From Gammaproteobacteria bacterium (GTDB taxonomy: Bacteria > Pseudomonadota > Gammaproteobacteria > Steroidobacterales > Woeseiaceae), in NCBI GenBank assembly GCA_013151645.1, contig JAADHU010000029.1, forward strand, positions 62,001 through 126,000: DNA of 64,000 nt. Reading direction: 5' to 3'. Below, one piece after another: positions 49,042-60,341 of the stretch (within the stretch, counting starts at the first letter, position 1; every line of letters begins with the position of its first letter). Made by a program: the position numbers and the translations under genes. The notes below the pieces were generated by a model, which saw nothing but the letters and a program-made list of their open reading frames with translations, had not been told where the DNA came from and made no database searches.

Positions 49042-51066
49042 TCAATCCCGATGCTTTCGGAACCAGGCCAGTATGTTGTCGACCTTGGCGATAAGATGCG
49101 AAGGGTGACTGGCGATGCCGTGCGATGCCTCCGGAAATCGCACCAGCGCGGTGTCGATTTTGCGGAGCTTCAATGCCTGGTAATACTGCTCCGCCTCCCC
49201 GATCGGCGTGCGGTAGTCCTGCTCACCCGAGATCAGCAGCGTTGGCGTCGTCACGTTACCGACCAGTGATAGCGGCGACCGTGCCCAGTAAGCGTCCGGA
49301 TCTTCCCAGGGCGCCTTCTCAAACCAGTACGCCGGCATGAACGCGGAGATGTCGGTGGTCAGCGACGTGCTGATCCAGTTAATGACCGGTTTTGCGACCA
49401 CGGCGGCGCGAAAGCGGTCGGTCTTGCCGACGATCCAGGCGGTCAGCACACCGCCCCCCGATCCGCCGGTCACGTACAGCTGGCGCTCATCGATGTAGCC
49501 TTTCGCGATGACAGCATCGACACCGGACATCAGGTCGTCGTAGTCCTGGCTGGGGTAATTGTGGTGAATGGTGTTGGCGAATCCATCGCCGTAGCTGGTT
49601 GAACCACGCGGGTTCGTGAACAGCACGACATAGCCGGCCGCGGCGTAACGCTGAATCTCCGCGGAGAAATGCGGTCCGTAGGCCGCAAACGGCCCACCGT
49701 GAATCTCCAGGATCAACGGATATTGCTTGCTGGCGTCGAAATCCGGCGGTGTAACGATCCAGCCCTGGATCTCGAGCGCGCCGGCGGGCGAAGACCAGCT
49801 GATCGCCTCGACCTGTCCCAGTGATTTGTGTGCGAACAGGTCGTCATTGAGATGCGTTAGTTTTCTCGCCGCACCACCGCGCCGGGCCACCGCAACATCG
49901 GCCGGGCGGTACTTCGTGCCGGCGGTGTAGGCGTAGGTTCCATTCCGGGAAACAGAAAATCCGCCGCTCGTATACGGGCGACCCAGCGAGACGCCGCCGA
50001 CATCGTGTACCTGTGACTCGATGGCGCCGCGCATCGAGAGCGTCGCGATATGGCGTTCACCGCGGGAGTCGTAAAGCACGTAAAGGCGCTTTGAACTGCC
50101 GGCCCACTGAACGTCGCCGATGGATCGATCGAAGTTCGCGGTCAAAGCGCGCGGGTTGTCGCCGTTCGCATCCATCAGGTAGACCATGGAATTGTGGTAG
50201 CCCATCTTTCGGTCATCGAATCCCCGATAAGCGATGGTCGACCCATCCGGCGAAAAAACGGGCGCCGTGTCCGGACCGACACGATCGGTCAGTTGAGTCA
50301 TCGATCCATCGCTTACATCGACGGACCAGATTTCGGATTCGAGCGGTTGGTATTGAGCATCGTCGATACGGCTCGCGGAGAAGACAATGGTTTTTCCGTC
50401 CGGAGACCACGACAGCGGCCCTGAATGGTCGTAGTGCCCGCGCGTGAGCTGCCTTGCGGTGCCGCCCTCGGCCGGCACGACGAAGAGGTGGGCATTACCC
50501 ACGTCAAGATAACCCCGTCCGTCGACACGATAGACCAGGCGGTCTATCACCTTGACCGATGGCGCCCATTGCGCACCTTCGGGCGTTGCGGGCGCCTCAG
50601 CCAACGTGGGCCCTTTGCCGGGCAGGAACATCGAGAAAGCGATCTGGGTGCCGTCGGGAGACCAGCGAATCGAGGATGGTGCCTTGCGGAGATTGGTAAT
50701 CAGTGCGGTCTGCCCGCTATCCATCCAGCGCACGTAGAGTTGGGCGCCACGGCCTTCGGTCGATGAAACATAGGCGATGCGATCACCCTGCGGCGACCAT
50801 CGGGGGCTCGTGAAGTTGTCGGTACCCGATAGCAGGGGGCGATGGTGCCGGCCGTCGGCGGAGATACTCCAGATATTCGAGCGTGGGAGGTCCGTCATAA
50901 TGTCCATGGACTGCCTGACGTACACAATGCGGGTTCCATCGGGTGAAATCTGCGGCTCGGACGCGACCTCCAGTTCAAAGACGTCGAGGGAATTGAAGAT
51001 AGCCGGGTCGGGATGGGCGAGCGCAACGCCCGACAGGGCGATCAGGGTCAGAATAAGTCGGTGCAT
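49042..51066 (-). CDS. Exported S9 family peptidase
   Basis: This is a 674-residue exported peptidase, with a signal peptide (MHRLILTLIALSGVALA) and GGAG nine bases before the ATG at 51066. Beta-propeller blades cover about 40-400, with SPDGTRIVYVR, SPQGDRIAYVSS and SPDGKTIVFSA. The catalytic domain has nucleophile VTGGSGGGVLTAW, acid in SGEQDYRTP and His in EASHGIASH. It resembles acylaminoacyl- or dipeptidyl-peptidases. It is 116 bases upstream of the M1 aminopeptidase on the same strand; the two may be one transcript. Confidence 0.93.
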   Translation of the reverse strand: MHRLILTLIALSGVALAHPDPAIFNSLDVFELEVASEPQISPDGTRIVYVRQSMDIMTDLPRSNIWSISADGRHHRPLLSGTDNFTSPRWSPQGDRIAYVSSTEGRGAQLYVRWMDSGQTALITNLRKAPSSIRWSPDGTQIAFSMFLPGKGPTLAEAPATPEGAQWAPSVKVIDRLVYRVDGRGYLDVGNAHLFVVPAEGGTARQLTRGHYDHSGPLSWSPDGKTIVFSASRIDDAQYQPLESEIWSVDVSDGSMTQLTDRVGPDTAPVFSPDGSTIAYRGFDDRKMGYHNSMVYLMDANGDNPRALTANFDRSIGDVQWAGSSKRLYVLYDSRGERHIATLSMRGAIESQVHDVGGVSLGRPYTSGGFSVSRNGTYAYTAGTKYRPADVAVARRGGAARKLTHLNDDLFAHKSLGQVEAISWSSPAGALEIQGWIVTPPDFDASKQYPLILEIHGGPFAAYGPHFSAEIQRYAAAGYVVLFTNPRGSTSYGDGFANTIHHNYPSQDYDDLMSGVDAVIAKGYIDERQLYVTGGSGGGVLTAWIVGKTDRFRAAVVAKPVINWISTSLTTDISAFMPAYWFEKAPWEDPDAYWARSPLSLVGNVTTPTLLISGEQDYRTPIGEAEQYYQALKLRKIDTALVRFPEASHGIASHPSHLIAKVDNILAWFRKHRD

Positions 51067-51216
51067 GGTACTGCTCTCCGCAGGGTGAGGCTCATCGAGC
51101 GCCAAAGCATCCACGAGTCCCGCGCTGCATTCAAGTTCTGCCGGGTGCGTTGAAACACGTTCGACAGACCCCATACAATTATTGCCTCAGATGGGTTTTT
51201 TCAGTGTCTTATCATG

Positions 51217-51245
51217 TTGCCATGCACCATCCGCCCCACTATAAT
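51217..51245 (+). promoter_or_regulatory. Sigma-70 promoter of the atp operon
   Basis: TTGCCA (51217-51222, five of six to consensus) and a perfect TATAAT (51240-51245) have an exact 17-base spacer. It lies about 105 bases upstream of atpI, so transcription would start near 51252. Confidence 0.85.
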
Positions 51246-51287
51246 GCGCGGGCTAAGCACAGGCTCGCTTGGCCAGAAAGTAGCAAT

Positions 51288-51329
51288 AACGCCACTCGCC
51301 GTCAGTTGACCGACGGACGTGGCGTTTTT
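51288..51329 (+). terminator. Intrinsic terminator-like hairpin in the atp leader
   Basis: AACGCCAC (51288-51295) pairs with GTGGCGTT (51319-51326), enclosing a second stem CCGTC/GACGG (51299-51303, 51312-51316). A five-T run (51325-51329) follows at once. It lies about 40 bases after the predicted transcription start and 21 bases before the atpI ATG. It has the form of an attenuator. Confidence 0.7.
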
Positions 51330-51350
51330 AGTGCCGGAGGCAAACCTGAA

Positions 51351-51749
51351 ATGATCGTGGGGGCCAGGGAGAAATCCACCGCCTCGTTCGGCCTGATCGT
51401 CCGGGTTCTGCTGGCGCAAATGGGCATTAGCGTGGTGATTGCCGCGTTGTTTTGGGGCTTAACCGGAAACGTTTCCGGCTATTCGGCATTGCTGGGTGGC
51501 CTGACGTGCGTGGTCCCAAATGCTTTTCTGGCGCTGCGACTCGTCGTGCCGCGACGCGACCCGGGGGCAGGTGCCCTGGTCGGTGCGGCTTATGTCGGCG
51601 AATTGGGCAAACTGGCACTGACGGTGATTATGTTTACGCTGATTTTCACGTTGGTTCGGCCGCTCGCGGCAGGTGCGCTGTTTACCGGCTTTATCGCCGC
51701 ACAGTTGGCAACGTTTGCCGGGTTCCTGATGCGGGACCGGCAGGAATGA
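51351..51749 (+). CDS. atpI: ATP synthase subunit I
   Basis: This is a 132-residue membrane protein at the head of the atp operon, with four predicted hydrophobic segments. These include VRVLLAQMGISVVIAALFWGL and TVIMFTLIFTLV. AtpI proteins help assemble the c-ring or import Mg2+ and are poorly conserved, so position is the main evidence. The ATG at 51351 has GGAGG 10 bases upstream. The long upstream frame contains the promoter and is not coding. atpB follows after 28 bases. Confidence 0.85.
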   Translation: MIVGAREKSTASFGLIVRVLLAQMGISVVIAALFWGLTGNVSGYSALLGGLTCVVPNAFLALRLVVPRRDPGAGALVGAAYVGELGKLALTVIMFTLIFTLVRPLAAGALFTGFIAAQLATFAGFLMRDRQE

Positions 51750-51765
51750 GAGACCAGGGAAATAA

Positions 51766-52623
<858 letters not shown>

Positions 52624-52629
52624 ATTTAA

Positions 52630-52932
<303 letters not shown>

Positions 52933-52985
52933 CATTGACCGTCGCTCACGCGACTGGTTTTTGAAGCAATTTTTAGGAGTCACTA

Positions 52986-53459
52986 GTGGACATTAATATC
53001 GGTACTCTCGTCGGCCAGATGATCGCGATGCTCGTGTTTGTCTGGTTCTGTATGAAGTACATATGGCCGCCGATCCTGAATGCGATCGAAGAACGGCAAA
53101 CGCAGATTGCGGACGGCCTTGCGGCTGCCGAGCGCGGACAACAAAGTCTCGACCAGGCACAAACTGAAGCAGGCGTGATTGTTGACGATGCGCGCAAGCA
53201 GGCGACCAGCATCCTGGATCAGGCGCATGCCCGGGCCAGTGAAATCGTCGCCGACGGTAAAACGGATGGCGTCAAGGAGCGCGAGCGTCAGCTCTCGCTG
53301 GCTACCGCCGAAATCGAGCAGGAGGCCAATCGTGCACGCGAAGAACTTCGCGGACAGGTTTCCGCGATTGCCGTTGCCAGCGCCGAAAAAATTCTTCGAC
53401 GTGAAATTGACGGTCGTGCTCATGAGGACATCCTGAGCCAGCTGGCGGCAGAGCTTTAG
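52986..53459 (+). CDS. atpF: ATP synthase F0 subunit b
   Basis: This 157-residue stator protein has a membrane segment near the N-terminus (about 8-25, GQMIAMLVFVWFCMKYIWPP). A long charged helical coiled coil follows that reaches to the F1 head. The start is a GTG at 52986 with AGGAG six bases upstream. It is the third F0 gene in the standard order. Confidence 0.96.
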   Translation: MDINIGTLVGQMIAMLVFVWFCMKYIWPPILNAIEERQTQIADGLAAAERGQQSLDQAQTEAGVIVDDARKQATSILDQAHARASEIVADGKTDGVKERERQLSLATAEIEQEANRAREELRGQVSAIAVASAEKILRREIDGRAHEDILSQLAAEL

Positions 53460-53471
53460 GTCGCCGCGGAT

Positions 53472-54035
53472 ATGGCCGATAACAACACGATTGCGAGACC
53501 GTATGCCGAGGCCATTTTCGAACTGGCCCGGGACGCGAATTCGCTGGATACGTGGTCGCAAGCCTTGGGCGTTGCCCGCTCGCTGATGGCGGATGGCACG
53601 GCAGCGCGGTTCTTGCTGCGACCGTCGCTGTCCAATGACGAGCGCCTCCGTTTTCTGGCTGAGCTGTTCGCGGCGGCCGGTGGAAAGTCGAACGTTTTTG
53701 CCGGTGGCGACACCTGGGGCACGAACTTTCTGAAGCTTCTGCTCGAATATCGCCGTGTGTCCGTTTTGCCGGAAATCTCCGAGCATTTTGAAGTGTTGAA
53801 GGCGGGCATTGAAAATACCATCGACGTCACCGTCACATCGGCGACGTCGCTCAGTCAGGCGCAACAAAAAACCCTGATCGACGCACTCAAAAGGCGCTTC
53901 GGTCGTGACGTAAATCTGCAAACAGAAATTGATGAAAACCTTATTGGTGGTGCGGTTATTCGTGCCGGCGATGTTGTCATAGATGGATCACTGCGATCGA
54001 GCCTGAAGGGCTTGGCCAACGCGCTGATCGCTTAA
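53472..54035 (+). CDS. atpH: ATP synthase F1 subunit delta
   Basis: This is a 187-residue soluble stator subunit that joins the b dimer to alpha. The N-terminus [18 protein letters not shown] and the C-terminal [20 protein letters not shown] are typical of OSCP/delta proteins. It lies 12 bases after atpF and 13 before atpA, within the operon. Confidence 0.96.
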
Positions 54036-54048
54036 AGAGGAAAAGAAG

Positions 54049-55590
54049 ATGGCACTCAAAGCTTCTGAAATCAGTCAACTGATTAAAGAGCGAATCGAGA
54101 ACTTCGAGGCATCCGCGGAAGCACAGGATGTGGGCACTGTTATTGGTGTCACCGATGGAATCGTACGTATTCACGGCCTTGCCGACGCGCGTTATGGTGA
54201 GATGCTCGAATTCCCCGGCAACACGTTCGGCATGGCGTTGAACCTGGAGCAGGACTCGGTTGGTGCCGTGGTCCTTGGTGACTACAAGCACATCTCCGAG
54301 GGCGATACCGTCAAGACCACGGGACGCATTCTTGAGGTGCCAGTCGGCGAAGCATTGCTCGGCCGGGTCGTTGATGCGCTGGGCAACCCGATCGATGGCA
54401 AGGGACCGATTGACGCAACCGAAACAGCGCCGATCGAGAAAGTCGCGCCCGGCGTTATCGAACGCAAGTCGGTCGATCAGCCGGTGCAGACCGGATTGAA
54501 AGCCATCGATGCAATGGTGCCCATCGGGCGCGGTCAGCGCGAGTTGATCATTGGCGATCGCCAAACGGGCAAGACGGCGGTGGCAGTCGATGCCATCATC
54601 AACCAGGTGGGTACGGGCATTAAGTGTATCTACGTCGCGATTGGCCAGAAGGCATCGTCGATTGCCGGCGTCGTCAGGAAACTCGAAGAAGTCGGCGCCA
54701 TGGGGCATACGATTGTCGTCGCGGCCGCCGCGGCCGATTCACCCGCATTGCAATACATCGCGCCGTATGCCGGTACGTCGATGGGCGAGTACTTCCTCGA
54801 CAAGGGTGAAGACGCACTGATTATTTTCGACGACCTGACAAAACAGGCATGGGCCTATCGCCAGATCTCCTTGTTGCTGCGTCGCCCGCCGGGTCGTGAA
54901 GCGTATCCGGGTGATGTTTTTTACCTGCATTCCCGTTTGCTTGAGCGCGCATCACGCGTCAATGAAGAATACGTTGAAGATGTGACGGGCGGAAAAGTAA
55001 AAGGCAAAACGGGGTCCCTGACAGCGCTGCCGATCATTGAAACACAGGCCGGTGACGTGTCCGCTTTCGTACCGACGAACGTTATCTCGATCACGGACGG
55101 ACAGATCTTCCTTGAGACAGATCTGTTTAACGCCGGTGTCCGGCCCGCGATCAACGCTGGTCTTTCCGTGTCCCGAGTGGGCGGTGCGGCGCAAACGAAA
55201 ATCATCAAGAAGCTCGGCGGTGGTGTAAGGCTGGCGCTGGCGCAATATCGTGAGCTTGCCGCATTCGCACAGTTCGCCTCCGACCTCGATGAAATTACTC
55301 GCAAGCAGCTTGCACGCGGTGAGCGCGTTACTGAGCTGATGAAACAGAAACAGTATTCCCCGTTGTCCGTCGCGGAGATGGGTTTGTCGCTGTTCGCGGT
55401 GAACGAAGGCTTTATCGACGACGTTGATGTTTCCAAAGTCGGTGACTACGAAGCAGCCCTGCATGACTACGCCAGAGCGAATGACGCCGATTTGATGGAG
55501 AAGATCAATGCAAGCGGCGATCTTAACGACGAAATCAGCGCGGGCCTGAAGGCGGTTTGCGAAGGCTTCGCAGAAAAGGGAGCGTATTAA
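54049..55590 (+). CDS. atpA: ATP synthase F1 subunit alpha
   Basis: This is a 513-residue nucleotide-binding subunit (E. coli 513). The P-loop is [13 protein letters not shown], and the signature [17 protein letters not shown] is present. AAAGAGGAAAAG-like sequence precedes the ATG. It alternates with beta in the catalytic head and carries the non-catalytic nucleotide sites. Downstream is a 160-base gap, unusually long for this operon, with a half REP-like element. Confidence 0.98.
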
Positions 55591-55595
55591 CAATT

Positions 55596-55623
55596 TGTAG
55601 GAGCGTCTCCTGAGGCGCGACCC
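55596..55623. repeat. Solo REP-like half-repeat between atpA and atpG
   Basis: TGTAGGAGCGTCTCCTGAGG followed by CGCGACC matches the right arm of the REPIN-like elements at 36.9, 40.3 and 46.3 kb. No inverted partner is present. The rest of the gap (55624-55750) shows no gene. Confidence 0.75.
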
Positions 55624-55750
55624 GCCAATGCCGAGAAAAACGCAAAGCGGCGGATCACGACAGGGTTGAAAGACGTTCTATCGAGAAAAGTGCACTGAAG
55701 TTTCCTGCGCGAAGCAGGTAAGTGCCAAGCGAGTTGATCAGAGATATTTT

Positions 55751-56623
55751 ATGTCCGGCGAAAAAGAAATACGCAATAAGATCCGCAGCGTGAAGAACAT
55801 GCAGAAGATCACCAAGGCGATGGAAATGGTTGCTGCCGCGAAGATTCGCAAAGCGCAGAACCAGATGGAAGCGTCGCGTCCCTATGCGGAGCGCATTCGC
55901 CGCGTCGTCGGTCACCTGGGCGCAGCCAATCCGGACTACAAACATCCGTGGCTGGTTGAACGTGAGGTGAAGCGCGTTGGTTATATCGTGATTTCGACCG
56001 ATCGTGGTCTTTGCGGCGGCCTGAATATCAATATGTTCAAGAAGGTTATTGGCGAACTGCAACACTGGAAAAACGAAGGCGTGGAGGTTGACCTGACATT
56101 GGTCGGTGCCAAAGCCGTACAGTTTTTCCGCCGTCTTGGTGGCAACGTAGTCGGCACGGCGACGCATCTGGGCGATCGGCCGCAGGCGAACGACCTCATT
56201 GGTGCGATTAAAGTCATGCTCGACTCCTACAGTGATGGGAATATTGACCGACTGTACGTCGTCCATAATGAATTCGTCAGCACGATGAGCCAGAAGCCGG
56301 ACGTAAAAGAACTGTTGCCGGTCAGCGCGATCGATCTGGGTGAAGAAACCCTGCAGGCCCACTGGGATTACATCTACGAGCCGGATGCCGTGGACCTCCT
56401 GGATGATGTCCTGTTGCGCTACATCGAGTCCCAGGTTTACCGCGGTGCGGTCGAAAACTTCGCCTGCGAAATGGCGGCGAAGATGGTGGCCATGAAGTCC
56501 GCGACCGATAACGCGGGCGATATTATTGATCAGCTGCAGCTCGTGTATAACAAAGCGCGGCAAGCATCGATCACACAGGAAATTTCAGAAATCGTCGGCG
56601 GCGCGGCTGCCGTCTCCGAGTAA
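55751..56623 (+). CDS. atpG: ATP synthase F1 subunit gamma
   Basis: This 290-residue central rotor shaft has long terminal helices. The N-terminus is [20 protein letters not shown] and the C-terminus is [32 protein letters not shown] lies between them, a gamma-subunit marker. The ATG at 55751 gives the standard start. Confidence 0.98.
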
Positions 56624-58063
<1,440 letters not shown>

Positions 58064-58081
58064 GCGGAAGAGCACAAGATC

Positions 58082-58498
58082 ATGGCCACAATTCGAGTTG
58101 ACATCGTCTCTGCAGAAGGTGAAATCTATTCAGGTGACGCCAACATGGTGTATGCGCCCGCCCGCATGGGTGAGGTTGGCATTGCGCCGCGGCATGCGCC
58201 GTTATTGACGGCGCTGAAGCCGGGCGAAGTCCGCGTAGAGGACACCGAGGGAAAAGAGCACTTTTTCTACATCACCGGTGGCATGCTCGAGATTCAACCG
58301 CATCTTGTGACGGTACTCGCCGACACGGCTCTTCGCGGCGAGCAACTTGACGAAGCGGCCGCGCTTGCGGCCAAACAAGCCGCGGAAGAGGCGTTGAAGG
58401 GCATCTCCGACAAAACCGATTTGGCCAAAGCCCAGGCCGAGCTGGTCGAAGCCCAGGCACGCTATCGCGCCACACAAAAGCTGAAGGGCCAGCGCTAG
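58082..58498 (+). CDS. atpC: ATP synthase F1 subunit epsilon
   Basis: This 138-residue subunit completes the nine-gene operon. It has an N-terminal beta-sandwich (VDIVSAEGEIYSGDANMV, MGEVGIAPRHAPLLTALKPG) and a C-terminal helical hairpin (about 90-138) that can inhibit ATP hydrolysis. It is 18 bases after atpD. No clear terminator is visible in the 115 bases before the CLC gene. Confidence 0.97.
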   Translation: MATIRVDIVSAEGEIYSGDANMVYAPARMGEVGIAPRHAPLLTALKPGEVRVEDTEGKEHFFYITGGMLEIQPHLVTVLADTALRGEQLDEAAALAAKQAAEEALKGISDKTDLAKAQAELVEAQARYRATQKLKGQR

Positions 58499-58613
58499 CC
58501 GCACACGCAGGCCGACCACCCGGAATAACACTGGATCTGGCGAGTCGTCGAGCGAGACGGGCGCCGCGCTTGCAGTGGGAAAAATCCTGCCGAGCCCTTA
58601 TTCTGTCCGGACT

Positions 58614-60341
58614 ATGTCACCCGTTACCCGTGCTCGTCATCTCGCCTCGTTCAAGCTCGCGGGGATCGCCGCGATCGTCGGCGCGGCCGCCGGCGGTGGT
58701 GCGATTGTTTTCTGGATGGCGGTGGCCCAAACGCGCCGCCTGCTGTTTGGTGCCGGCCCGCAGAACCTGTACACCGTCGCCAGCAACCTGCCCTGGTGGA
58801 AACTGCTGCTATGGCCAACGGCCGGCGGGCTGCTTGTTGGCCTCTTCATTCATCGTTTTATGCAGGAGCAACGGCCACACGGTGTCGCGGATGTCATCGA
58901 AGCGGCCGCGATTCGGGGCGGTCATCTGTCATCGAAGAACGGTTTCGCGGCCGCGCTCGTGAGTGCGGCATCCATCGGATGTGGCGCTTCCGTGGGGCGT
59001 GAAGGACCTATCGTGCACCTGGGTGCGACGCTCGGTTCCTGGTTCGCGCGCAAAACGAATATCCCGCCTGGACAGATTCGCCGCCTGATCGGCTGCGGCG
59101 TGGCGGCCGGGATCGCGGCCTCCTTCAATGCGCCGATCGCCGGTGCCGTGTTCGCCATTGAGGTTGTCATCGGCAAATACACGTTGCATACGTTTGCGCC
59201 CATTGCGATAAGCACGGTTGTTGGCACCTCCGTCGCCCGCCTTTACTACGGCAGCGAGCCCGCCTTCACGATTCCCGTACACACCATCACAACCTTCGAC
59301 GAGATTCCCGCTTACGCACTGCTCGGCATCATCAGCGCGGCAACCGCCATCGCATTTCTGTTGTGTATTTCAACGACCCGCAGCTTCTTCGAACGAGTTC
59401 GGTGCCCGGCGAAATTCCGCCCGGCGATAGCCGGCTTGGTGGTCGGTGTGCTGGCGATATATACCCCACAGGTATTGGGCGTCGGTTACGAAACAACCAG
59501 CGCGGCCCTGCATGAGGCGCTGCCGGCGACGCTGCTGGTCATATTGATTGTCACCAAATTGCTGGCGGCCGGTATCAGCCTCGGTGGTGGCTTCGGCGGC
59601 GGAGTTTTTTCACCGTCGCTTTTTCTGGGTGCCATGAGCGGAGGCGCATTCGGTACACTATGGGAATCCTTTTCGACGCAGGCGGCAGGCGGTTACGGCC
59701 CCTATACCATCGTCGGTATGGGCGCGGTGGCGGGCGCGGTGCTGGGCGCGCCGCTATCCACGACGCTGATCGTTTTCGAAATGACCGGGGATTACCCGCT
59801 GACGCTGGCCGTCATGCTGGCCGTTATTACCAGCTCAATCCTGGTCAACGACGTATGGGGACGCAGCTACTTCCAGTGGCAACTGCAGTGTCGCGGCGTC
59901 GATCTCATTCACGGCAGTGTCGAGCAGCTCGGAATGCAGCTGCGGATGGAACAGCTTATGAGCACGCCTGTGACGACGCTCTCATCGGTCGCGACTCTGG
60001 AACAGATCTTGACCGCTTTTGACGGAGAAAAAGAGGTTTACGTGCTCGACGACAATGACCAGTCTTTGCTGGGTTCGATTCCGATCAGAAAACTATTGCA
60101 GGCTCATGACGGCAAGATGACGGCGGCTGACTTCGCGGAGTCCCTGCCGACACTAAAAATTAGCGACGACCTGGTTACCGCGATCGCCTTATGTAACGCC
60201 TGCGATGCCACTTCCTTTCCGGTCGTGTCTGACGACGATAGCGGCAAGGTGATAGGCTGTGTAACGGTAAAAAGAATCATGTATGCATACCAGGGGCTGC
60301 TGGATCGCGTCGCGAAAGAGGAACATTCTTTTACTGACTGA
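58614..60341 (+). CDS. CLC family chloride channel/transporter with CBS domains
   Basis: This is a 575-residue membrane protein. The gating Glu is in GREGP (residue 130), with the chloride-site loop GGGFGGGVFSPSL further on. A pair of CBS domains occupies about 440-565 (QLMSTPVTTLSSVATLEQI). The internal proton-glutamate equivalent to E. coli ClcA Glu203 is Val184, in FNAPIAGAVFAIEV, while the neighbouring Glu is kept. The first motif reads PHGVADVIEA, where ClcA has GSGIPE. These changes suggest a channel or a transporter with altered proton coupling. A GTG at 58575 is an alternative start. Confidence 0.9.
   Translation: MSPVTRARHLASFKLAGIAAIVGAAAGGGAIVFWMAVAQTRRLLFGAGPQNLYTVASNLPWWKLLLWPTAGGLLVGLFIHRFMQEQRPHGVADVIEAAAIRGGHLSSKNGFAAALVSAASIGCGASVGREGPIVHLGATLGSWFARKTNIPPGQIRRLIGCGVAAGIAASFNAPIAGAVFAIEVVIGKYTLHTFAPIAISTVVGTSVARLYYGSEPAFTIPVHTITTFDEIPAYALLGIISAATAIAFLLCISTTRSFFERVRCPAKFRPAIAGLVVGVLAIYTPQVLGVGYETTSAALHEALPATLLVILIVTKLLAAGISLGGGFGGGVFSPSLFLGAMSGGAFGTLWESFSTQAAGGYGPYTIVGMGAVAGAVLGAPLSTTLIVFEMTGDYPLTLAVMLAVITSSILVNDVWGRSYFQWQLQCRGVDLIHGSVEQLGMQLRMEQLMSTPVTTLSSVATLEQILTAFDGEKEVYVLDDNDQSLLGSIPIRKLLQAHDGKMTAADFAESLPTLKISDDLVTAIALCNACDATSFPVVSDDDSGKVIGCVTVKRIMYAYQGLLDRVAKEEHSFTD

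Follow-up and report, generated by a model that had tools for sequence, protein, structure and literature searches.

Organization of the atp locus and its promoter

The window, that is, the entire stretch of 64,000 nucleotides analyzed here, contains an F-type ATP synthase operon, atpIBEFHAGDC, whose leader combines a promoter, a GC-rich hairpin with an adjoining T-run and a Shine-Dalgarno (SD) sequence (Table 1). The gene upstream of atpI is a divergent S9 peptidase gene, where many relatives have parB on the same strand, and a gene for a CLC-type chloride channel with a CBS domain (58575-60341) lies directly after atpC.

Table 1. Features of the atp leader and its neighbourhood, in coordinates of the window
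Feature	Position	Strand	Evidence
S9 (prolyl oligopeptidase family) gene, divergent	49042..51174	-	ORF direction, Pfam
-35 hexamer TTGCCA	51217..51222	+	promoter scan; consensus comparison in relatives
-10 hexamer TATAAT	51240..51245	+	promoter scan; invariant in 59 aligned leaders
GC-rich discriminator GCGCGG	51246..51251	+	GCGC in 58/71 relatives
Predicted short leader RNA, 78 nt, if the terminator stops transcription	51252..51329	+	inferred; start from -10 position
5' hairpin of the leader	51252..51273	+	folding; weakly supported as structure
Predicted intrinsic terminator hairpin, outer stem AACGCCAC/GTGGCGTT, inner stem CCGTC/GACGG	51288..51326	+	folding, comparison of relatives
T-run, five T	51325..51329	+	TTTTT invariant in 59 leaders
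SD sequence GGAGG of atpI, within conserved block AGTGCCGGAGGC	51336..51340	+	sequence, family alignment
atpI, first gene of the operon	51351..51749	+	Pfam PF03899, E 7e-15
atpB, E, F, H, A, G, D, C, remainder of the operon	51778..58498	+	AtpB PF00119; other subunits named from sequences

The sigma-70 promoter TTGCCA-17-TATAAT (51217-51245) matches the consensus at 11 of 12 positions and is the highest-ranking promoter-like site in the 11 kb that were scanned. Among 71 relatives the commonest -35 elements are TTGCCA and TTGCCT, and the 17-nt spacer is retained in 67. The start of transcription, placed by counting 7 nt from the -10 hexamer, would fall at about 51252. GCGC discriminators are common at stringently controlled promoters, and the one present here hints that the atp promoter may be linked to growth rate. 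In 73 relatives the stretch from the terminator to atpB contains no promoter matching the consensus at 9/12 or better, and the same holds for the window; hence, transcription from the promoter at 51217-51245 must cross the terminator.

The terminator hairpin

The hairpin begins approximately 43 nt after the promoter, has the order AACGCCAC / CCGTC / GACGG / GTGGCGTT with internal loops, and together with its T-run ends 21 nt before the ATG of atpI (51351). The earlier note, made on this DNA from the letters alone, had described a sigma-70 promoter followed by a two-part GC-rich stem with five Ts ahead of the first gene and a 78-base RNA; the arrangement is confirmed at 51288-51329, and the count from the putative +1 to the last T is indeed 78 nt. 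The core of the hairpin, CGCCAC..GTGGCG (51290-51324), folds with a predicted energy of -17 to -20 kcal/mol, and the first two Ts of the T-run are able to pair with an upstream AA. The T-run is followed by AGTG, and this tail is not of the strongest terminator type. By the d'Aubenton Carafa formula, a fold-based score for intrinsic terminators, the leader attains d = 16.1. Among 400 dinucleotide-shuffled versions of this leader, none attains that value and only 4 exceed zero. The hairpin is absent from the output of a simple consensus scan. It is thus a GC-rich hairpin that directly abuts a T-run and scores better than chance, both against shuffles and across 73 leaders, and orthologous leaders likewise have it after the promoter and ahead of the first gene. 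These features identify 51288-51329 as a canonical intrinsic terminator by sequence, with termination itself being predicted.

Immediately 3' of the T-run, the block AGTGCCGGAGGC (51330-51341) is conserved beyond what an SD sequence alone needs. It can fold into a small GCC-GGA-GGC hairpin that presents GGA in its loop, like a CsrA site. The SD sequence lies within such a hairpin in many leaders, though the motif is not preserved in all of them, and a CsrA gene is present in the source genome; control by CsrA at this position is offered as a weak idea.

Conservation and covariation of the leader

The operon was located via AtpB in 149 relatives, and leaders were read from 90 loci. An alignment of 59 leaders of the family was used to read the structure, the alignment itself not being fitted to any structure. 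The invariant columns in these leaders comprise TATAAT, CGCC.C, GGC and TTTTT. Identity is highest in the T-run (1.00) and the 3' outer stem (0.99), followed by the SD block (0.95, or 94.6%), the inner hairpin (0.81) and the spacer (0.56). Pairing is retained in 90.7% of the cells of the alignment, as against 27-51% when the partners are slid, a contrast exaggerated because the structure comes from this same alignment and the sequences are related. The earlier note had named a lack of covariation in relatives as grounds for abandoning its reading; in fact, changes on both sides are seen at 6 pairs, 4 of them in the inner stem. Thus, there is almost no variation in the outer stem GCCAC/GTGGC or the T-run, whereas the inner stem, the loop length and the arm spacing vary without loss of pairing. 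Five leaders (L061, L064, L084, L057, L085) retain the hairpin form with a wholly different inner sequence, and these are, at the level of sequence comparison, independent support for a conserved form. In each of the 73 leaders bearing the GTGGC-T signature d is above zero (median 14.5), and the T-run directly abuts the GC stem in every leader that was scored. The leaders of family f6 are only about 37 nt long and amount to a bare hairpin with a perfect stem and longer T-runs of 7-8.

The conserved position, the invariant T-run, the compensatory changes and the specificity for the atp locus argue for selection on a promoter-proximal terminator. As judged from the alignment, selection maintains this terminator, acting on sequence at the outer stem and the T-run but on pairing at the inner stem. 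The conservation of the outer stem could nevertheless reflect the base-proximal G-C pairs that any terminator needs, without a specific factor.

The predicted 5' hairpin ahead of the terminator has a z of -2.2 in the window; the family mean of -0.55 is not significant, and the short f6 leaders could not accommodate it. This hairpin overlaps a near-perfect dyad, CAGGC-N2-GC(C/T)TG (51260-51271), which in the family stands at a near-fixed distance of about 14 nt after the -10 element. The C-to-T changes in its right arm preserve G-U pairing, which fits an RNA element better than a DNA operator. No genome has more than one instance of TATAAT combined with CAGGC-N2-GCYTG, and wherever coordinates were compared this instance lies at the atp promoter, which rules out a regulon that shares this promoter-dyad arrangement. 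The family leaders also share a conserved 5' block, CAGGCNNGCYTG, which is not conserved outside the family; both the block and the dyad are missing in L024. One leader (L045:1-3001) carries an additional hairpin-rich stretch of about 50 nt between the promoter and the 5' block.

Phyletic distribution

The genomes compared are assemblies, many of them incomplete. A -10 element followed by a hairpin and T-run within 135 nt is present at 78 of 90 loci of the order to which the Woeseiaceae belong, versus 8 of 80 gammaproteobacterial atp leaders from outside it, the latter drawn from genomes with the AtpB most like the query; none of these 8 has the GCCAC/GTGGC arms. Of 55 family genomes, 47 contain the signature TATAAT..GCCAC..GTGGC.TTTT exactly once, and in the cases where coordinates were compared this copy sits at the atp locus. 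Beyond the order, 13 of about 337 genomes have the signature, at atp in none of those with a listed AtpB position. Of 80 motif matches listed for the named genome collection, 54 are followed by AtpB at a distance of 385-671 nt, and another 5, near contig ends, carry the same leader; those listed matches that bear a family name are mostly from Woeseiaceae. A covariance model of the family, searched against the class, retrieved only family members, in part as a result of strict filters; leaders were also read directly and by pattern.

Promoter and terminator are found at the same place in most Woeseiaceae genomes. Further families of the order that share the arrangement are f3, f5, f6, f7, f9, f10 and f16, and in part f11 and f15; it was not seen in families f2, f4, f8, f12 and f13. 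The AT-rich, reduced genomes of genus g4 keep TTGCC(A/T)-17-TATAAT and have lost the GC-rich terminator. The terminator is therefore dispensable, as it is missing from these five families and from g4. The g4 members without it are L035, L050, L051, L055, L068 and L076, two of which (L055 and L076) have an A/U hairpin, GAAAAAAC..GTTTTTTC, at a similar place. Genome G040 has two AtpB loci, one of which shares an identical leader and AtpI start with G044 (L061, L062), and this suggests transfer or contamination.

Comparison with known leaders

The E. coli atp leader likewise has a sigma-70 type promoter shortly upstream of atpI. In E. coli K-12, no terminator lies between the atp promoter and atpI, and the hairpin-T-run sites found there, 491 and 380 nt before atpI, are upstream of the promoter. 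The former (L348), situated between rsmG and atpI, has the arms GCCACG..CGTGGC and a T7 run, a resemblance that is possibly ancestral or possibly due to chance. In agreement with the earlier note, which knew of no standard attenuator for atp operons in Gammaproteobacteria, the terminator is thus missing both in the atp leader of E. coli and in those sampled from other gammaproteobacteria. Promoter-proximal terminators are an established type, and the literature searches, which did not extend to attenuator lists in supplementary files, found no attenuator in an atp leader. In P. aeruginosa, a mutant lacking one base 95 bp upstream of atpI shows reduced atp expression (PMC12548396).

The closest parallel is the rimP-leader, a terminator with a conserved stem and no antiterminator (Naville and Gautheret 2010, PMC2965389). 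Both are short intrinsic terminators with a sequence-conserved stem close to the ribosome-binding site in the leader of a housekeeping operon, and in neither is an antiterminator or a larger aptamer detectable. They differ in operon (rimP-nusA-infB versus atp), in stem motif (GGGc..gCCC versus GCCAC..GTGGC, in the window CGCCAC..GTGGCG) and in spread (most bacteria versus one gammaproteobacterial order). By this comparison the atp leader is similar in kind to the rimP-leader and, because stem motif and operon differ, not a member of it. The leader-peptide attenuators of the trp, his and ilv type also place a terminator between the promoter and the first structural gene; unlike them, the atp leader has neither a conserved start codon or ORF nor a mutually exclusive helix. 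In the late leader of phage lambda, the strong promoter pR' is followed by the terminator tR', which silences the operon unless RNA polymerase is modified through Q antitermination; the likeness to the atp leader is one of architecture only.

Mechanistic interpretation

Several forms of control were considered and rejected. Rfam covariance models gave no match to the leader at gathering thresholds and none at E-values up to 1, and the leader is therefore not a riboswitch or other RNA element known to Rfam. A repeat element is incompatible with the single true copy that the family covariance model finds in the genome, and a DNA operator made of the GCCAC/GTGGC arms is at odds with their spacing, which varies between 4 and about 27 nt where a dimer site would be fixed. 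No ATG, GTG or TTG precedes the hairpin in 29 of 73 leaders, and the remainder vary with none conserved; a leader-peptide attenuator was rejected in the absence of a conserved short ORF before the terminator. A competing helix, sought over all column pairs of the family alignment, was not convincingly found, the candidates being short or using the T-run or downstream bases. The SD sequence, CCGGAGG, resembles the inner 3' arm; in the window the inner arm has changed without the SD sequence following. The alternative fold that the earlier note had entertained is accordingly not borne out: no conserved antiterminator helix was found in the family, and the f6 leaders are too short to have room for one. 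Its attenuator interpretation as a whole is partly supported.

Since no leader peptide, conserved antiterminator helix or Rfam riboswitch was found, we place control in the elongation complex or a factor acting on it, an argument also put forward for the rimP-leader, whose anatomy is the same. RNA polymerase would start near 51252 from a strong, rRNA-like sigma-70 promoter and meet the intrinsic terminator within about 78 nt, where some complexes would stop and release a short RNA while others would read through into atpIBEFHAGDC. The readthrough fraction would most likely depend on the elongation complex or a factor, with NusA/NusG, the speed of RNA polymerase under NTP or ppGpp, and an RNA-binding protein recognizing the conserved stem as candidates. 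The reading that we favour, with about even confidence, is that the leader acts on the atp operon as a lineage-specific attenuator consisting of a bare terminator, where elongation factors, the state of RNA polymerase or an RNA-binding protein would determine readthrough. A more specific proposal, distinctly speculative, is that a dedicated host-encoded termination or antitermination factor, which would recognize the GCCAC/GTGGC stem or, like phage Q, be loaded at the promoter, switches the atp operon of this order after initiation and would couple it to the energy or NTP state without a riboswitch or leader peptide.

Among the alternatives, a possible though unlikely one is that constant readthrough merely trims a very strong promoter without regulation by a signal, as might be expected from the failure to find an antiterminator, an upstream ORF or any other sensing part, and from the bare f6 hairpin. 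A weaker promoter would, however, suffice for this purpose, and a near-consensus promoter retained together with a terminator over many genera would be an odd constant, an argument that is not decisive.

Two further alternatives appear improbable, each to much the same degree. The released 78-nt RNA could be a trans-acting small RNA, transcribed from the atp promoter, derived from the 5'-UTR and ending Rho-independently; its size, U-tailed terminator, 5' hairpin in the window and conserved 5' block would all be fitting. Against this, the 5' block is confined to the family and lost in L024, the 5' structure lacks family-wide significance, and the length falls to about 37 nt in f6. Alternatively, the hairpin might not terminate at all, instead stabilizing the 5' end of the mRNA, with the U-rich stretch before the SD sequence aiding ribosome (S1) binding. 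U-rich leaders do aid ribosome binding for E. coli atpE, and the hairpin and T-run stand directly before the strongly conserved SD block; yet the T-run abuts the GC stem as in intrinsic terminators throughout the scored leaders, and in f6 it is lengthened behind a perfect stem.

It is very improbable that the hairpin is an ordinary 3' terminator of the upstream gidAB-parAB operon that by chance follows the atp promoter. A simple motif test places a ParB C-terminus immediately upstream, in the same orientation, in 26 of 73 relatives, but in the window the neighbour is divergent and the terminator is intact, and a position downstream of the atp promoter necessarily affects atp; as the S9 gene is divergent, the terminator serves no upstream operon in the source genome. 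Hardly any credence attaches to a coding origin, with VAFLVPEA extending AtpI at its N-terminus or belonging to a small peptide and the hairpin being incidental: ATGGANGTGGC is present in 36 of 73 leaders, but its frame relative to AtpI is random (28/18/27), the T-run and outer stem lack synonymous variation, and the window copy has no ATG there.

Biological implications

ATP synthase is a central enzyme, and the setting of its level has been little studied outside E. coli. The retention of a terminator directly behind the atp promoter in a widespread environmental group points to control after initiation, and the comparison of leaders suggests that Woeseiaceae and related marine bacteria probably throttle ATP synthase after transcription has begun. 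The atp leader is a small, testable element and, being bare, would provide a second case of the puzzle posed by the rimP-leader, namely control by a terminator without a visible switch.
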